Origin: a bacterium
GTDB taxonomy: Bacteria; ARS69
Direction: 5' to 3'
DNA length: 12,387 nucleotides
NCBI GenBank assembly: GCA_025774865.1
Contig: JALGZO010000142.1
Coordinates: forward strand, 1-12,387
Shown here: piece by piece, positions 3,551 through 12,387 of the stretch
How positions within the stretch are numbered: position 1 is the stretch's first letter
Layout: each line of letters opens with the position of its first letter
Program-made: the position numbers and the translations under genes
The notes under the pieces: generated by a model
The model's database searches: none
Seen by the model: the letters and a program-made list of their open reading frames with translations, nothing else
Told to the model about the DNA's origin: nothing

Positions 3551-4135
3551 ATGAAGATCGGGCCGGTCGACATCCGGAATCATTCGTTCTCGAGGAAGCT
3601 CAACGGAGTGGACGAAGCGGAGGTCCGCGCCTTCCTGGACCTCGTGGCGGATCGTCTGGAAGAGTCGATCATGGAAGCGGACGACCTTCGAGGACGAATC
3701 GATCGGCTCGAGCTTCGCGTCGACGAATACTCGAAGCTCGAGCGCGCGCTGCGCGACTCGTTGATCTCGGCCGAGCGCGTGGTCGAGGACCGGCGCCACG
3801 CCGCAGAGAGGGAGGCGCGCATCCGGATCAAGAACGCCGAGGTCGATGCCGAGAAGATCGTCCTGAACGCGCGTGGCGAGCTCGGTCGCCTGCGGGCCGA
3901 GATCGACGATCTGCGGCGGCAGAAGGTGACCTACGTCGAGAGATTCCGGGCGCTCCTGCGCTCGCAGGTCAAGATCCTCGAGGCTTCGATCGAGGAGTTC
4001 GATCCCGACAACGCGGGCCCTGAGGTCCGAAACGTTCTCGACGAAGTCGAGCGCGCCGAGCAGAAGTCGGCCAACATGCCGTTGGGGTATGCGGATCCGC
4101 GGACCCCGGCTTCCCCGTCTTCCGGGACTCCATGA
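3551..4135 (+). CDS. divIVA: DivIVA-domain coiled-coil protein
   Basis: A 194-residue protein whose first 25 residues align without gaps to the DivIVA lipid-binding domain: PVDIRNHSF at 5-13, then a crossed-loop region and GVDEAEV (19-25). Long heptad-rich coiled coils follow (about 28-75 and 78-150), then a Pro/Ser-rich tail (178-194). DivIVA proteins bind negatively curved membrane at poles and septa and recruit division or wall-synthesis factors. At the membrane-inserting tip (Phe17/Arg18 in Bacillus subtilis) this protein has Leu17/Asn18, with Arg15/Lys16 supplying positive charge. The ATG at 3551 is preceded by a very purine-rich GGGGGAGGGGGAAG, a strong ribosome-binding site. It lies between yggT and a nucleoside phosphorylase whose ATG overlaps the divIVA stop. 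Confidence 0.9.
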   Translation: MKIGPVDIRNHSFSRKLNGVDEAEVRAFLDLVADRLEESIMEADDLRGRIDRLELRVDEYSKLERALRDSLISAERVVEDRRHAAEREARIRIKNAEVDAEKIVLNARGELGRLRAEIDDLRRQKVTYVERFRALLRSQVKILEASIEEFDPDNAGPEVRNVLDEVERAEQKSANMPLGYADPRTPASPSSGTP

Positions 4136-4959
4136 CGCCCCTTCTCTCGGATCGTGTTCGTGAGTCGGCGGCGTTCCTCCAAGAGCGGGGCGTCGGCCAA
4201 CCGGTGGCGGCGGTCCTGCTCGGCTCCGGCCTCTCCGGTGCCATCGGGCTGGACGACGGCCTTTCGATCCCGTACGCGGAGATTCCGGGTTTCCCGGACG
4301 GCAACGTGGCGGGCCACGATCACCGCCTCGAGTTCGGACAGGTCAAGGGCCGCGCGGTGCTGGTTCTCCGCGGTCGCGTTCACTACTATGAGGGCGCGTC
4401 GCTCGCGGAAGTGACATTTCCGATCCGCGTGATCCGCTCCCTCGAGCCGCGGTGGATGGCGATATTGAACGCGGCCGGCGGGATCAATCCGGACTACGGG
4501 GTCGGTGACATCGTGTTTCTCTCGGACCACATCAACTGGATGGGCGACAACGCGTTGGTGGGTCCGAACGACGATTCCCTCGGGCCGCGGTTCCCGGACA
4601 TGTCGAATGCGTATGATGCGGAGCTCCGCCGCCGGGCAGAGTCGGTCGCGGAGGACGCTTCGATCCGAACCCACCGAGGAGTCTACGCGGCGGTGGCCGG
4701 GCCGACCTACGAGACACCGGCCGAGATCCGGATGCTGCGCCTCGCGGGCGCCGACCTCGTCGGGATGTCGACGGTGCCGGAAGTGATCGTCGCGGTGCAC
4801 GGAGGATCGAAGGTGCTCGGCATGTCCGTCGTGACGGATCTCGCGGTCACGGAGGAGCTGGAGCCCCTGTCGCACGGAATGGTGCTCGGGGCGGCGGAGA
4901 AGGCGGCGCCTCGCGCGGGCGCGATCCTCGAAGGGCTCGTCGAAGGAGAAGAAGAGTGA
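4132..4959 (+). CDS. punA: Trimeric-type purine nucleoside phosphorylase, possibly adenosine-preferring
   Basis: A 275-residue member of the PNP/MTAP phosphorylase family 2, which cleaves purine nucleosides with phosphate to give free base and ribose 1-phosphate. Motifs in order are LLGSGLSG (phosphate loop), GHDHRLEFG, GRVHYYEG, LNAAGGI, LSDHIN, GPNDDSLGPRFPDMSNAYD, GVYAAVAGPTYETPAEIRM and GADLVGMSTVPEVIVAVH. The Glu of YET that holds the purine ring is present. The usual TN of the base site is instead TD (Asp236, codon 4837-4839), followed by LAVTEELEPLSH rather than the usual LAAG-type sequence. Asp here is the methylthioadenosine phosphorylase state and suggests 6-aminopurine use, although MTAP-specific Ser/His features are absent. 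The start overlaps the divIVA stop (ATGA) with no clear ribosome-binding site, implying coupling. The annotation as PNP is firm; the substrate is inferred. Confidence 0.93.
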   Translation: MTPLLSDRVRESAAFLQERGVGQPVAAVLLGSGLSGAIGLDDGLSIPYAEIPGFPDGNVAGHDHRLEFGQVKGRAVLVLRGRVHYYEGASLAEVTFPIRVIRSLEPRWMAILNAAGGINPDYGVGDIVFLSDHINWMGDNALVGPNDDSLGPRFPDMSNAYDAELRRRAESVAEDASIRTHRGVYAAVAGPTYETPAEIRMLRLAGADLVGMSTVPEVIVAVHGGSKVLGMSVVTDLAVTEELEPLSHGMVLGAAEKAAPRAGAILEGLVEGEEE

Positions 4960-7900
4960 AGCAGGAGACCCAACCGCTCTACCCGGTCGACTCTCTCCGG
5001 GAGTCCGCGGAACGCGCCGAACGCGCGATCCTCGAGCGCTGGAAAACGCGCGACATCTTCCGGAAGACCGTCGACGGGCGGCGGGATGCGCCTCCGTTCG
5101 TGTTCTACGAGGGCCCGCCCACCGCGAACGGCAAGCCGGGCGTCCACCATGTCCTCGCCCGCGCGATCAAGGACCTCGTGTGCCGGTACCAGACGATGCG
5201 CGGGCGTTACGTGCGGCGCCGAGGCGGCTGGGACACGCACGGGCTGCCGGTGGAACTCGAAGTCGAGAAGCAGCTCGACATCGACAAGCGGGAGATCGTC
5301 GAGAGGATCGGGATCGAGGCGTTCAATCGGAAGTGCCGGGAATCGGTCTTCACCTACCTCGACGAATGGCGCGAGCTCACGGAACGGATCGCGTTCTGGA
5401 TCGATCTCGAGGACGAGTACGTGACCCTCGAGAACGAATACATCGAGTCGGTGTGGGCACTGCTCGCGCGGATTCACGAGAAGAATCTTCTCTACCGGGG
5501 GTTCAAGAGCGTTCCGTACTCCACGAAGTCGGGCACGACGCTCTCCGATCACGAGGTGGCGCTCGGTTACCGGGAAGTCGACGATCCCTCCGTCACGATC
5601 CGCTTCCGGTGGGCCGACGATCCCGACGTCTCCTTTCTCGTCTGGACCACCACGCCCTGGACGCTCCCCGGCAACACGGGCCTCGCCGTTCACCCTGACG
5701 TGACCTACGTGAAGGTGCGCCACGGAGGCGAAGTTCTCGTGCTCGCGGAGGATCTGGTGGGCGCGGTGATCACGGGGGAGGAAGAACCGGAGATTCTCGA
5801 GAAGATGAAGGGCGCGGACCTGCTCGGGAAGAGCTACGTGCCCCTCTTCGACTACTACGCTTCGACGAAGGAGACTCACCCCCCCGCGTTCACCGTCGTG
5901 CCGGGGGACTTCGTCACGACGACCGACGGCACCGGAGTCGTGCACCAGGCCCCGGCGTTCGGGGCCGAAGACCTCGAGACGGCCGAGGAGCACGGCATCC
6001 CGATCGTGCTCCACGTCGACGATGCGGGGTGCCTCAAGGGCGAGGTGGCGGACTTCGCCGGACTGTGGTTCAAGGACGCGGACGCTCCGATCACGAAGGA
6101 CCTGCAGGAACGCGGCCTTCTCTACAAATCCGAGACCTACCGCCACACGTATCCCTACAACTGGCGGGGCGAGGATCCCTTGATGTACGTGGCACGCGAG
6201 GCCTGGTACATCCGGACCACCGAGATCCGGCAACGCCTCTGCGACCTGAACCAGGAAATCCGTTGGGTGCCGGGTCACATCCGCGACGGGCGCTTCGGGG
6301 ATTGGCTCGAGAACAACGTGGATTGGGCGCTGTCCCGTGAGCGGTTCTGGGGTACGCCGCTTCCGATCTGGGTGTCGGACCGCGAGCCGAGCCAGTTCGA
6401 GGTGATCGGCTCGGTGGCGCAATTGTCGGAGCGGGCCGGGCGCGATCTCTCCGGTCTCGACCTGCATCGGCCGTACGTCGACGAGATCACGTGGCCCGAC
6501 GGTAACGGCGGCACGATGCGTCGCATCCCGGAGGTCGTGGACGTGTGGTTCGACTCGGGTGCGATGCCGTTCGCGCAATGGCACTATCCCTTCGAGAATC
6601 GTGAGGTCGCCGAGGCGCAATTCCCCGCGGACTACGTCTGTGAGGCCGTCGATCAAACCCGCGGTTGGTTCTACAGCTTGCACGCGATCGCGGCGCTCGT
6701 ACGCGATTCTCCCGCCTACAAGTCGTGCCTCGTGACGGGGCACGTCCTCGGAGGCGACGGTCAGAAGATGTCGAAGAGTCTCGGCAACACCGTGAGTCCG
6801 TGGGACGCGCTGGACATCGGCGGGGCCGACGCGCTGCGCTGGTTCATGTCGGTCACGAACAACCCGACGGGAGGGATGCGCTTCTCCGAGGACGGAGTCC
6901 GCGAGGTGTCGCGCAAGATTCTCGACACGCTGCGAAACCTCTACTTGTTCTTCGCGCAATACGCGAACCTCGACGGCTACCGTCCGGATGGTGATCGCAC
7001 CTCGGTGGAGCAACGCTCTTTGCTCGATCGCTGGATTCTGTCGCGGTTGCACTCGCTCGTTCGCGTGAGTACGTCGCAGATGGATGCCCTCGAAGTCTGG
7101 CGGGCGGGACGGGCGATCGAGCAGTTCTGTCTGGAGGATCTCTCGAATTGGTACGTGCGTCGGTCCCGCGATCGCTTCTGGGCGCCGGGCTTCGAACCGG
7201 ACAAGCGCGCTGCGTTCGACACGCTGTGGGAGTGCCTGCAGACGGTCTCTCGCCTGATCGCGCCGTTCGCCCCGTTCCTGGCCGAGCGGCTCTGGCTGGG
7301 CCTCACGGAGGCCGGGGGAGGGGACGAGAGTGTGCACCTCGCCGCGTGGCCGGAACTCCGAGCGGAGCTCGTGGACGAAGACCTCGAGCAGAGGATGGAG
7401 GCCGTTCGCCGGGTCGTCCGGCTCGGCCGCGCCGCGCGCCAGCGGGCCAACGTGAAGACGCGTCAGCCGCTCGCCCGGGTACGCGTGGTGCCCCCCGCCG
7501 GTGAGGCTCCGCAGGGAGACTTCCTGGCGATCGCGCTCGAGGAGCTGAACGTGAAGACGGCGGAAGCGCAGGAGCCGGGGTCACTACTCTCCGAGGTCCG
7601 CGCGAAGGCGCGATTCGCGGCGCTCGGCCCTCGGTTCGGAAAGGACATGAAGGAGGTCGCGGCCGCCATCGGAGCGCTGTCATCGGAAGCCGTAGCCACC
7701 CTGGAACGGGCGGGGCAGGTCGCCGTCGACGTCCGCGGCGCCTCACACCAGATCCGCCGCGACGAGGTCGAGGTGAGCCACACCGATCCCGAAGGGTGGA
7801 TCCTGGAGCGAGAGGGTGGCTGGTCGGTCGCCCTCGATCTCGAGATCGGGGAAGCGCTCCGGCTCGAGGGTTTCGCGCGGGAAATAGTGAACAAGATCCA

Positions 7901-8117
7901 GTTCATGCGACGTCAGGCCGACTTCGATATCACCGATCGCATCGAGGTCTTCTTCCAAGGGACGGACGTCGTGCGCGAGGCCGTCGAGCGACACGGGGAG
8001 CTCATCCGCACCGAGACCCAAGCCGTCGGGATCGAGTCCGGGAGCTGCGACGCCGAGGCGCAGCAGGAGTGGAAGATCAACGGCGAGCCCACCGTGTTGT
8101 TCCTGAGGCGCGTATGA
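4956..8117 (+). CDS. ileS: Isoleucyl-tRNA synthetase, type 2 (IleRS2) with GVHH in place of HIGH
   Basis: A 1053-residue class Ia synthetase charging tRNA-Ile. The N-terminal Rossmann fold holds GPPTANGKPGVHHVL (53-67), so the HIGH position reads Gly62-Val63-His64-His65. It continues into GGWDTHGLPVE. The CP1 editing domain carries WTTTPWT (230-236) and GTGVVHQAPAFGAED (325-339, with the conserved Asp339). KMSKS is intact at 604-608 in GDGQKMSKSLGN. An anticodon-binding helical domain follows, then the C-terminal domain seen in type 2 enzymes (RRQADFDITDRIEVFF), without the E. coli-type C-terminal zinc finger. The YPYNWRGEDPL segment (Asn402, Gly405) lacks the Cys pair of CWRC-type enzymes. 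GTG at 4956 overlaps the upstream stop and has AAGGAG (4943-4948) seven bases before it. The stop overlaps the lspA ATG. It is the only ileS seen and sits in a housekeeping operon. Confidence 0.97.
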   Translation: MKQETQPLYPVDSLRESAERAERAILERWKTRDIFRKTVDGRRDAPPFVFYEGPPTANGKPGVHHVLARAIKDLVCRYQTMRGRYVRRRGGWDTHGLPVELEVEKQLDIDKREIVERIGIEAFNRKCRESVFTYLDEWRELTERIAFWIDLEDEYVTLENEYIESVWALLARIHEKNLLYRGFKSVPYSTKSGTTLSDHEVALGYREVDDPSVTIRFRWADDPDVSFLVWTTTPWTLPGNTGLAVHPDVTYVKVRHGGEVLVLAEDLVGAVITGEEEPEILEKMKGADLLGKSYVPLFDYYASTKETHPPAFTVVPGDFVTTTDGTGVVHQAPAFGAEDLETAEEHGIPIVLHVDDAGCLKGEVADFAGLWFKDADAPITKDLQERGLLYKSETYRHTYPYNWRGEDPLMYVAREAWYIRTTEIRQRLCDLNQEIRWVPGHIRDGRFGDWLENNVDWALSRERFWGTPLPIWVSDREPSQFEVIGSVAQLSERAGRDLSGLDLHRPYVDEITWPDGNGGTMRRIPEVVDVWFDSGAMPFAQWHYPFENREVAEAQFPADYVCEAVDQTRGWFYSLHAIAALVRDSPAYKSCLVTGHVLGGDGQKMSKSLGNTVSPWDALDIGGADALRWFMSVTNNPTGGMRFSEDGVREVSRKILDTLRNLYLFFAQYANLDGYRPDGDRTSVEQRSLLDRWILSRLHSLVRVSTSQMDALEVWRAGRAIEQFCLEDLSNWYVRRSRDRFWAPGFEPDKRAAFDTLWECLQTVSRLIAPFAPFLAERLWLGLTEAGGGDESVHLAAWPELRAELVDEDLEQRMEAVRRVVRLGRAARQRANVKTRQPLARVRVVPPAGEAPQGDFLAIALEELNVKTAEAQEPGSLLSEVRAKARFAALGPRFGKDMKEVAAAIGALSSEAVATLERAGQVAVDVRGASHQIRRDEVEVSHTDPEGWILEREGGWSVALDLEIGEALRLEGFAREIVNKIQFMRRQADFDITDRIEVFFQGTDVVREAVERHGELIRTETQAVGIESGSCDAEAQQEWKINGEPTVLFLRRV

Positions 8118-8659
8118 ACACCGTCGAGCCCCGTGCGACCGCTGGTCCGTTCTTCTACGTCGTCGCCGCCATCGTGCTCGTGGTCGATCAGATCACGAAG
8201 TTCCGCATCTCCGACCTCATGTTCCGGGGCGAGTCGGTCTCGGTGCTGGGCGAGTTCTTCCGCATCACGTACGTGCACAACGAGGGCGCCGCGTTCGGAC
8301 TGGATCTCGGTGGTCGCTGGTCGTTCATCGTCGTCACGCTCGTGGTGGCCGCGTTCATCCTCTTCTACTACGCGCGCACCGAGAACACCGCGACCGCACG
8401 CTGGGCACTCGCGCTCATCCTCGGCGGCGCGCTCGGGAATCTGGTCGATCGCGTGCGGATCGGCGAGGTCGTCGATTTTCTTCACTTCTCCGTCTCCGGG
8501 ATCTCGTGGCCGATCTTCAACGTCGCGGACATCGGAGTCTCGGTCGGCGTCAGCCTGCTCGCGATCCACCTGTTCCGAAAGGAGCATCCCGAGGATGCCG
8601 TCGGACCCGCCCCCGCTCACCCTTCGGATCCCGCCGGAGAAGAAGGGCGCCCGGCTTGA
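8114..8659 (+). CDS. lspA: Lipoprotein signal peptidase (signal peptidase II)
   Basis: A 181-residue inner-membrane aspartyl peptidase that removes signal peptides from diacylglyceryl-modified prolipoproteins. Four membrane segments are visible (about 13-30, 68-87, 96-113 and 133-154). Conserved signatures are VVDQITK (Asp25), HNEGAAFG (Asn56), GGALGNLVDRVRIGEVVDF with catalytic Asp121, and FNVADIGVS with catalytic Asp139. The frame is open upstream inside ileS, but homology starts after the ATG at 8114, which overlaps the ileS stop (ATGA) and has GAGG five bases before it. The last ~22 residues, a Pro/Ala/Glu-rich tail, are encoded in DNA shared with the start of rluD. Confidence 0.96.
   Translation: MNTVEPRATAGPFFYVVAAIVLVVDQITKFRISDLMFRGESVSVLGEFFRITYVHNEGAAFGLDLGGRWSFIVVTLVVAAFILFYYARTENTATARWALALILGGALGNLVDRVRIGEVVDFLHFSVSGISWPIFNVADIGVSVGVSLLAIHLFRKEHPEDAVGPAPAHPSDPAGEEGRPA
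8579..8584 (+). promoter_or_regulatory. Ribosome-binding site fixing the rluD start
   Basis: AAGGAG ten bases before the ATG at 8595, inside lspA. It supports a start for rluD within lspA, producing a 65-base overlap, and no other in-frame start exists before the S4 domain. Confidence 0.6.
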
Positions 8660-9694: not shown

Positions 9695-10141
9695 GTGGAT
9701 CCCAGCGCCCCGGAAATCCAGCTCGTCGTTCCCAGTCGGATCGAGTCCCTGGCGGTGATCAACGCCGTGGCGGAGGAGATCTCCAACCAGCTGAACTTCG
9801 ACGAGGAAGCGCGGAACGCCATCACGATCTCCGTTGTGGAGGCAGGTACCAACGCGATCGAACACGGAAACGGCTACGATACCGAGAAACCGACGGAGGT
9901 CGTGTTCCGTCAGGAGAATGGAGCCCTGATCATCCTGATCCGGGACCGTGGAGCTGGATTCGATCTCGACGAGCTGGGCGATCCGCTGGCGCAGGAGAAC
10001 ATGTTCGCCGAACGAGGGCGGGGCGTTTACATCCTTCGGGCCTTCATGGATGAGGTGGATTTCGCGTTTCGGGCCGGACAAGGAACCGAGTGCCGCCTCG
10101 TGAAGTACCTCCCGCAAAAGAGTCTCCGCACCAACGAGTAG
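9695..10141 (+). CDS. RsbW/SpoIIAB-like GHKL ATPase (anti-sigma factor / switch kinase)
   Basis: A 148-residue single-domain HATPase_c protein of the serine-kinase anti-sigma type. The N box is VVEAGTNAIEHGNG (47-60; Glu49 and Asn53 for Mg-ATP, His57). The G1 box is IRDRGAGFD (82-90; Asp84, Gly86, Gly88) and the G2 box is ERGRGVYILRAFMDEV (106-121). There is no histidine phosphoacceptor domain, so it is not a sensor histidine kinase. Relatives bind a sigma factor or other target and phosphorylate a STAS-domain antagonist; a PP2C phosphatase reverses this. Such a phosphatase is encoded immediately downstream, which strongly suggests partner switching. The GTG start at 9695 has GGGGGA before it and gives a family-sized protein. 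The target and the STAS antagonist are not in the window. Confidence 0.9.
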   Translation: MDPSAPEIQLVVPSRIESLAVINAVAEEISNQLNFDEEARNAITISVVEAGTNAIEHGNGYDTEKPTEVVFRQENGALIILIRDRGAGFDLDELGDPLAQENMFAERGRGVYILRAFMDEVDFAFRAGQGTECRLVKYLPQKSLRTNE

Positions 10142-10171
10142 CCCGTGCCCGGACGCGGGCCCGGAGTCGAT

Positions 10172-12387
10172 ATGTCCTTCGATCTCGTTGCGGCGACCGC
10201 GTATCTGACGTGCGGCGCGCTGATGCTCTTCCTCGGGTTTATCGTCCTGCGGGAGAACCCTCGCCAGCGCGTGAACCTGGCCACGGCAGGGATGCTCGTC
10301 TTCGGCGGTCTGGGCCCGATCCTGGGCGCCTACAGCAACCTCGCAGGTCGGGCCGGCGACGCCGCGGCCCCACAAGATGTCTTCACGCGGTTCGCGTTCC
10401 TGTGGGAGTTCTTCTTCCCGGCGGTCCTCGCCTTCGCGCTCGTCTTTCCGACCCAGCACCGGATCCTGACGCGCTGGCCGCGCTTCTTCTTTCTGCTCTT
10501 CGTGCCTCACCTCTTCCACGTGTTTCTCGTGCTCGTGGCGGGGGACCTGACGGACTTGCTCGCCGGGGTCAACGTCGAGTCGCTGCTCCCGGTCGGCGCG
10601 AGCATCGCAAACCGGGTGGTGGGGCTGGCGCGCGTGACTCTCGAGCTTCTGCTGCGGGTCCACGTGCGGTTCTTCTCGTTCGTGAACCTCGCGATGGCGC
10701 TCGCGAGCTGGATCATCCTGATGCGATCCGCCCGGAGGACGGCGAGTCCCAAGCTTCGTTCGCAGGTGCGCACGATCCGGTTCGGCCTCGGACTCAGCCT
10801 CGCCCTGTACTCGGGAGGGGAGCTCGTGCCGAGGGCCTTCGGATGGACGCTGGGCCGCTCGATCGGCCTGCCGCTGGTCACGGTCTCGCTGCTCGTGGGC
10901 GCCGTATCGATCGTCGTCGCGATCGTTCGGCTGGGATTCCTCGACGTCCGGTTCATCGTCCGGCGAGGTCTCGTCTACGGGCTTGCCTCCGGCGTGATCG
11001 TCGCGCTGTACCTGTTCGTGGGAAAGCAGATCGATCGCGTCTCGGCACACTTCGTGGGCGAGCAGCTCCCCGTGTTCGAGACCACGTTCCTCGTATTGAG
11101 CTTGTTTCTGCTGCAACCGGTGCTTGCCGGCATCGAGCGGATGGTCGACGGGGCCCATTCGCGCGACCGTTCCGATCTGCGGAACGCCCTGACGCGACTG
11201 TCGGAGCAGGTGTCGTTGCTGCTGGAGCCGTCGGACGTGACCGAGGTCACCGCAAGAACGATACGACGCGAAATGGTTCTCGATCACGTGGCGGTGGCGA
11301 CCCTCGATCGGATCACCGGCGCGTATCAACTCACGCTGGCGAGCGAGCGGAATGGAGACGGCGAATCGCTGGAAGTGGATGACCACTGGAGGTCGGGCGC
11401 GGCGCTCTTCGAAGCGTTGACCGGTCGGCGGGAACCGGTGCCCGTGAGCGAGCTGGCGGAGGTTCCGGCGAACGACGCGGATCGGGCGAAGCTCGCGGCG
11501 GGGCTCGCGACGATCGGGGCGCAGGTCGCGATTCCACTCTACGCCGCCTCGCGCGGCGCGGGATCGCGCGCGAACGCGGGGGCGCTGGTGGGGGTCGTGA
11601 CGCTCGGCCGCAAGGTCACGGAGACGCGGATCACGTTCGAAGAGCTGTCGCTGGTCTCACTCGTCGTCCAGCAGGTCGGGATCAGTCTGCTGAACGCGTC
11701 GTTGCACAAGGAACAGATGGCGACGCGCCTCCTCGAGGAGGAGGTGGCGACGGCGCGTCAGATCCAGCGGCAGCTGCTCCCCGAGGAACCGCCTCGGCTC
11801 ACCGGGTGGGAGCTGTTCGCGAGCAACAGCCCGAGCCGCCACGTCGGGGGGGACTACCACGACTTCGTGCCGCTCCCGGCGGGTTCCGTGGGTATCGCGA
11901 TCGGTGACGTCTCCGGGAAGGGAGTCCCGGCGGCCCTGCTCATGTCGAACCTGCAAGCGGCGCTCCGCATTCGAGTTCTCGACGGCCATCCTCCCGACCG
12001 CGTCGTCGAACAGGTGAATCGACAGATCTGCAAGAACACGGGATCCGAGAGCTTCATCAGCTTCTTCCTGGGAGAGCTCAGCCCTCGCGAGGGTACGTTC
12101 AGCTTCACGAATGCGGGTCACAACGCGCCCGTTCTGGTGCGGAGGAACGGATCGACCGAGAAGCTGGAGCGGGGGGGACTGCTGCTCGGAGTCTTCCCCG
12201 AGGCGTCGTACGAGACCGGGGAGGTGGGTCTCGACCCGGGCGACTTCCTCGCTTTCTACACGGACGGGGTGACCGAGGCGAGCGATCCCGATGGAGAGCT
12301 CTTCAGTGAGGATCGGCTCGTCGACGCTTTGGTGAAGCATCGCCACGAATCTGCCGAAACGAGGCACGACCGAATCCTTCAGGAGGT
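10172..12387 (+). CDS. Membrane-anchored GAF / SpoIIE-RsbU-type PP2C serine phosphatase (3' end outside window)
   Basis: An open frame of 738 codons runs off the window end. Residues 1-322 contain about nine hydrophobic segments (near 5-25, 38-56, 73-95, 104-124, 167-185, 203-220, 231-256, 266-285 and 302-322). The IVRLGFLDVRFIVRRGLVYGL stretch (251-271) resembles N-terminal multi-pass sensor regions of some histidine kinases. A GAF-like domain follows (about 338-512), then a helical linker (513-536, with ATARQIQRQLLPE). The PP2C/SpoIIE domain begins at about 545: HVGGDYHDF (metal Asp561), IGDVSGKGVPAALLMS (Asp579), FISFFLGEL, NAGHNAP (647-653), GGLLLGVF and YTDGVTEA (Asp698). It would dephosphorylate a phospho-STAS antagonist in response to a membrane or GAF signal. 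ATG at 10172 has GGAG five bases before it; an in-frame GTG at 10145 lacks one. It begins 30 bases after the GHKL ATPase gene. Confidence 0.92.
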   Translation, partial: MSFDLVAATAYLTCGALMLFLGFIVLRENPRQRVNLATAGMLVFGGLGPILGAYSNLAGRAGDAAAPQDVFTRFAFLWEFFFPAVLAFALVFPTQHRILTRWPRFFFLLFVPHLFHVFLVLVAGDLTDLLAGVNVESLLPVGASIANRVVGLARVTLELLLRVHVRFFSFVNLAMALASWIILMRSARRTASPKLRSQVRTIRFGLGLSLALYSGGELVPRAFGWTLGRSIGLPLVTVSLLVGAVSIVVAIVRLGFLDVRFIVRRGLVYGLASGVIVALYLFVGKQIDRVSAHFVGEQLPVFETTFLVLSLFLLQPVLAGIERMVDGAHSRDRSDLRNALTRLSEQVSLLLEPSDVTEVTARTIRREMVLDHVAVATLDRITGAYQLTLASERNGDGESLEVDDHWRSGAALFEALTGRREPVPVSELAEVPANDADRAKLAAGLATIGAQVAIPLYAASRGAGSRANAGALVGVVTLGRKVTETRITFEELSLVSLVVQQVGISLLNASLHKEQMATRLLEEEVATARQIQRQLLPEEPPRLTGWELFASNSPSRHVGGDYHDFVPLPAGSVGIAIGDVSGKGVPAALLMSNLQAALRIRVLDGHPPDRVVEQVNRQICKNTGSESFISFFLGELSPREGTFSFTNAGHNAPVLVRRNGSTEKLERGGLLLGVFPEASYETGEVGLDPGDFLAFYTDGVTEASDPDGELFSEDRLVDALVKHRHESAETRHDRILQE

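Follow-up and report, generated by a model that had tools for sequence, protein, structure and literature searches.

A GVHH motif in place of HIGH in the type 2 isoleucyl-tRNA synthetase of an uncultivated bacterium

Does the isoleucyl-tRNA synthetase gene (ileS) of an uncultivated bacterium really encode GVHH where class I synthetases carry HIGH (HXGH)? And if so, which type of enzyme bears the swap, is it the only copy, and what would follow for mupirocin? The gene lies in a stretch of 12,387 nucleotides, hereafter the window. We hold with high confidence that it is a housekeeping ileS of the known GXHH subclass of type 2 enzymes (IleRS2), in which His64 would be catalytic and which would be hyper-resistant to mupirocin. 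The motif sequence, the enzyme type, the number of ileS copies in the draft and the conservation within the family are direct observations.

The motif at the HIGH position

The ileS product is a full-length isoleucyl-tRNA synthetase (937.4 bits against TIGR00392, cut-off 621.4) with tRNA-synt_1, Anticodon_1 and DUF5915 domains. The 3' end of pnp overlaps its start by 4 bases, and the ATG of lspA overlaps its stop (Table 1). Downstream of rluD, the window also contains a gene for an RsbW/SpoIIAB-like anti-sigma ATPase, followed by one for a membrane protein that carries a SpoIIE phosphatase domain (9695-12385). This pair is possibly a partner-switching module.

Table 1 Features of the ileS locus in window coordinates
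Feature	Position	Strand	Evidence
pnp (purine-nucleoside phosphorylase), directly 5' of ileS	4132..4959	+	NF006054, 324 bits; synteny
ileS, type 2 isoleucyl-tRNA synthetase (IleRS2), 1053 aa, GTG start	4956..8117	+	TIGR00392, Pfam, PDB match, tree
GVHH (residues 62-65), replacing the class I HIGH (HXGH) motif	5139..5150	+	Sequence and ungapped alignment
HYPFE (residues 543-547), signature of eukaryotic/eukaryote-like IleRS	6582..6596	+	Signature named in PMC4861432
KMSKS (residues 604-608), normal	6765..6779	+	Sequence
DUF5915 C-terminal domain (residues 859-1051), without CxxC zinc pairs	7530..8108	+	Pfam and sequence
lspA (signal peptidase II), directly 3' of ileS	8114..8659	+	TIGR00077, 122 bits; PF01252; synteny

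Positions 5139-5150 read GGCGTCCACCAT, in frame with the GTG at 4956, and give Gly62-Val63-His64-His65. Among solved structures, four IleRS2 entries of Priestia megaterium match best. With phmmer, the motif region aligns gap-free to 8c8w (YEGPPTANGLPGVHH) and to 8c8u/8c8v (YEGPPTANGLPHVGH), which places Gly62 and His64 at HIGH positions 1 and 3. Entry 8c8w has the identical GVHH in the same context, PPTANGxPGVHH; its columns and those of our enzyme read YEGPPTANG-K/L-PGVHH, where the natural-motif P. megaterium entries read PHVGH. The GVHH form 8c8w also scores slightly above the canonical-motif form 8c8u (938 against 931 bits). In 8c8w, however, GVHH was engineered into a natural HVGH second copy, whereas in our enzyme it occurs naturally and in the single copy detected. 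With Gly62 at position 1 (Gly or Ala in the subclass) and His64 and His65 at positions 3 and 4, the enzyme falls into the G/AXHH subclass.

The sequence-only reading had placed GVHH at this site, and the codons together with the ungapped alignment to 8c8w confirm it. The possibility that a normal HxGH lies at another place in the fold is rejected: neither H.GH nor H.G[TN] occurs in the whole protein, which contains a single G.HH. Sequencing error or chance is rejected by family conservation. Both close homologues from the same family (67-68% identity) have GVHH there, and GXHH is found in 76 of the 78 readable motifs among the best 80 homologues from named genomes, a sample picked by likeness to the query that gives breadth and not an unbiased frequency.

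A type 2 enzyme

The same reading had linked altered GXHH signatures with some type 2 synthetases, and all lines of evidence assign our enzyme to that type. We built a FastTree tree of 111 sequences (17 IleRS1 and 94 IleRS2) from which the motif columns had been removed. Its deep branches are weakly resolved; the branch that separates the 17 IleRS1 from the 94 IleRS2 has a support of 100. Our enzyme lies among the other 84 GXHH IleRS2, away from IleRS1. Its DUF5915 C-terminus has no CxxC, against two in each of the 17 IleRS1. Trp138 and HYPFE are present, as in IleRS2. Thr56, Ala68 and His596 occupy columns that hold Tyr, Asn and mostly Phe in the 17 IleRS1 rows. The signatures Tyr, NKIL and HYPFE are those named in PMC4861432; the IleRS1 ones, Tyr-59 and NKIL, are replaced by Thr56 and by Ala68-Arg69-Ala70-Ile71. 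According to Brkic et al. 2023 (PMC10485003), the Asn and the Phe contact mupirocin in IleRS1 only.

GXHH in an enzyme of the IleRS1 type would be at odds with the finding that this type cannot use the motif. The adjoining lspA would fit such an enzyme, since ileS usually lies next to lspA in bacteria. But the C-terminal domain, HYPFE, Trp138, the best PDB matches and the tree all indicate type 2, and identity to the IleRS1 rows is only 25-31%. We consider the IleRS1 reading refuted, with a probability close to nil.

The enzyme is thus of type 2. The plasmid-type resistance synthetases MupA and MupB are likewise IleRS2-like. An acquired gene of this kind is rejected, because the scores against NF000257 and NF000258 (840 and 825 bits) are far below the cut-offs of 1900, and because ileS stands here in a chromosomal housekeeping context.

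A separate observation concerns the IleRS1 set itself. In 8 of the 17 sequences, position 4 of the HIGH motif is Thr or Gln (HLGT, HMGT, HLGQ; L019, L020, L024, L027, L028, L032, L035 and L036, from distant genomes). No paper that names such HXGT-type motifs for IleRS1 turned up in a literature search. They run counter to the statement in PMC10485003 that all IleRS1 have HXGH.

Copy number and relatives

The genome of origin (G000) was searched for a second ileS, a check that the sequence-only reading had proposed. The window gene is the only one above the TIGR00392 cut-off, and the four other matches are ValRS, LeuRS, MetRS and CysRS. The count holds for this draft of 785 contigs (92.65% complete, 8.3% contamination). 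The phylum is represented by five genomes in the collection, the four besides G000 all belonging to one family. One of these, G003 (100% complete, 1% contamination), likewise has a single ileS above the cut-off. G003 and G001 encode the GVHH enzyme at the same place, again between pnp and lspA, and the three close copies have a mean column identity of 81%. In the fourth relative genome, 82% complete, no ileS was found. Beyond the phylum, much of the order tdk-yggS-yggT-divIVA-pnp-ileS-lspA is found again in an Eisenbacteria contig (L134) and in a Krumholzibacteriota contig (L141). Given the copy number and a gene context that recurs in other genomes, the gene is very probably the resident housekeeping copy.

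Alternatively, the protein could be a paralogue that has degenerated or does not charge tRNA, the canonical IleRS being encoded at another place in the genome; the draft is incomplete and partly contaminated. We judge this very improbable. Another ileS was sought in the draft and none was found; the protein is full length, with an intact KMSKS, is conserved in the close copies and is encoded in a housekeeping operon. Moreover, the non-canonical-motif IleRS2 of Streptomyces griseus and Deinococcus radiodurans are active (PMC10485003, PMC4861432).

The remaining relative, G002, encodes a different IleRS (L039, G002:C58:726-3812). It has GVHH in the context SFLDGPITANNPMGVHH, only 36% identity and PMHKS instead of KMSKS, and in the tree its long branch arises at the base of IleRS2. 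It possibly belongs to the minor IleRS2 clade of PMC10485003, or stems from gene replacement or from a contig that is contamination. One may tentatively suppose, though we regard it as rather less than an even chance, that this phylum, which the passages of the 2023 study used here do not name, has no IleRS other than GXHH enzymes, which fall into two deeply diverged forms (that of the window, G001 and G003, and that of G002). This would imply a swap of one hyper-resistant IleRS2 for another within one family.

Spread of the motif and predicted mupirocin resistance

The link of GXHH with high mupirocin resistance, raised by the sequence-only reading, is real in the literature. In PMC10485003, G/AXHH is reported in 86 of 163 IleRS2, housekeeping enzymes included, and in none of the IleRS1. 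Mupirocin Ki depends on the motif, differing by as much as about a thousandfold, and reaches the millimolar range. Crystallography showed that the third His substitutes for the first, the tip of the HIGH helix being shifted in IleRS2, and a clash of the third His with mupirocin was modelled. Natural examples are S. griseus, with the same non-canonical motif, and D. radiodurans, with ALHH instead of our GVHH. Our enzyme resembles these in the swap of HIGH positions 1 and 3, in type 2 architecture and in being a full-length housekeeping enzyme; it differs only in its lineage, an uncultivated group.

In contrast, the suggestion that a housekeeping-operon copy with GXHH is noteworthy is not supported; such a copy is the usual case. 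Among the best 80 matches, GXHH homologues span at least eleven phyla (Balneolota, Rhodothermota, Bacteroidota, Ignavibacteriota, Zixiibacteriota, Cloacimonadota, Chloroflexota, Gemmatimonadota, Actinomycetota, Pseudomonadota, Bacillota and others), and their ileS often adjoins lspA and pnp. The two exceptions among the readable motifs are HIGH, both in Bacillota. According to PMC10485003, bacterial IleRS1 and IleRS2 are in general each found alone.

The cause of this spread is a distinct question. The motif may be functional and yet owe its distribution to deep ancestral fixation, not to mupirocin selection in this organism, resistance being a by-product. We lean moderately towards this view, which is compatible with the GXHH IleRS2 assignment and bears only on why the motif spread. 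GXHH is nearly fixed over many phyla, and the motif shows only 5 label changes on the tree over all groups. On the other hand, the homologues were sampled by their similarity to the query, and PMC10485003 argues for selection by natural antibiotics.

How the enzyme might work can be proposed by analogy with the published homologues. With Gly62 at the first motif position, His64 would take over the transition-state role that the first His has in the canonical motif. This would be possible because in type 2 enzymes the tip of the HIGH helix is shifted, which would leave room for a His beside the adenine. The shifts at issue are of 1-2 angstroms. His64 would also collide with mupirocin, and the enzyme is therefore predicted to be hyper-resistant (Ki near millimolar) with uncrippled catalysis. 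Normal Ile-tRNA synthesis with intrinsic hyper-resistance is thus expected of the enzyme. Since one ileS was found in the draft genome, intrinsic resistance of the organism is a fair inference; permeability and efflux also shape whole-cell mupirocin resistance.

The GVHH variant is not new but an ordinary example of the type described in 2023. It adds an uncultivated lineage, with predicted intrinsic mupirocin resistance, to the bacteria with a naturally swapped HIGH in their essential IleRS. It leaves unchanged what was described in 2023 about catalysis by class I synthetases and about resistance to mupirocin.

One further position was noted. Residue 596 (6741-6743, before KMSKS) lies in the column of the mupirocin-stacking Phe586 of PmIleRS1. 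This column holds Leu in 65 of 85 GXHH IleRS2, and His in our enzyme and in PmIleRS2; it possibly co-varies with the motif.
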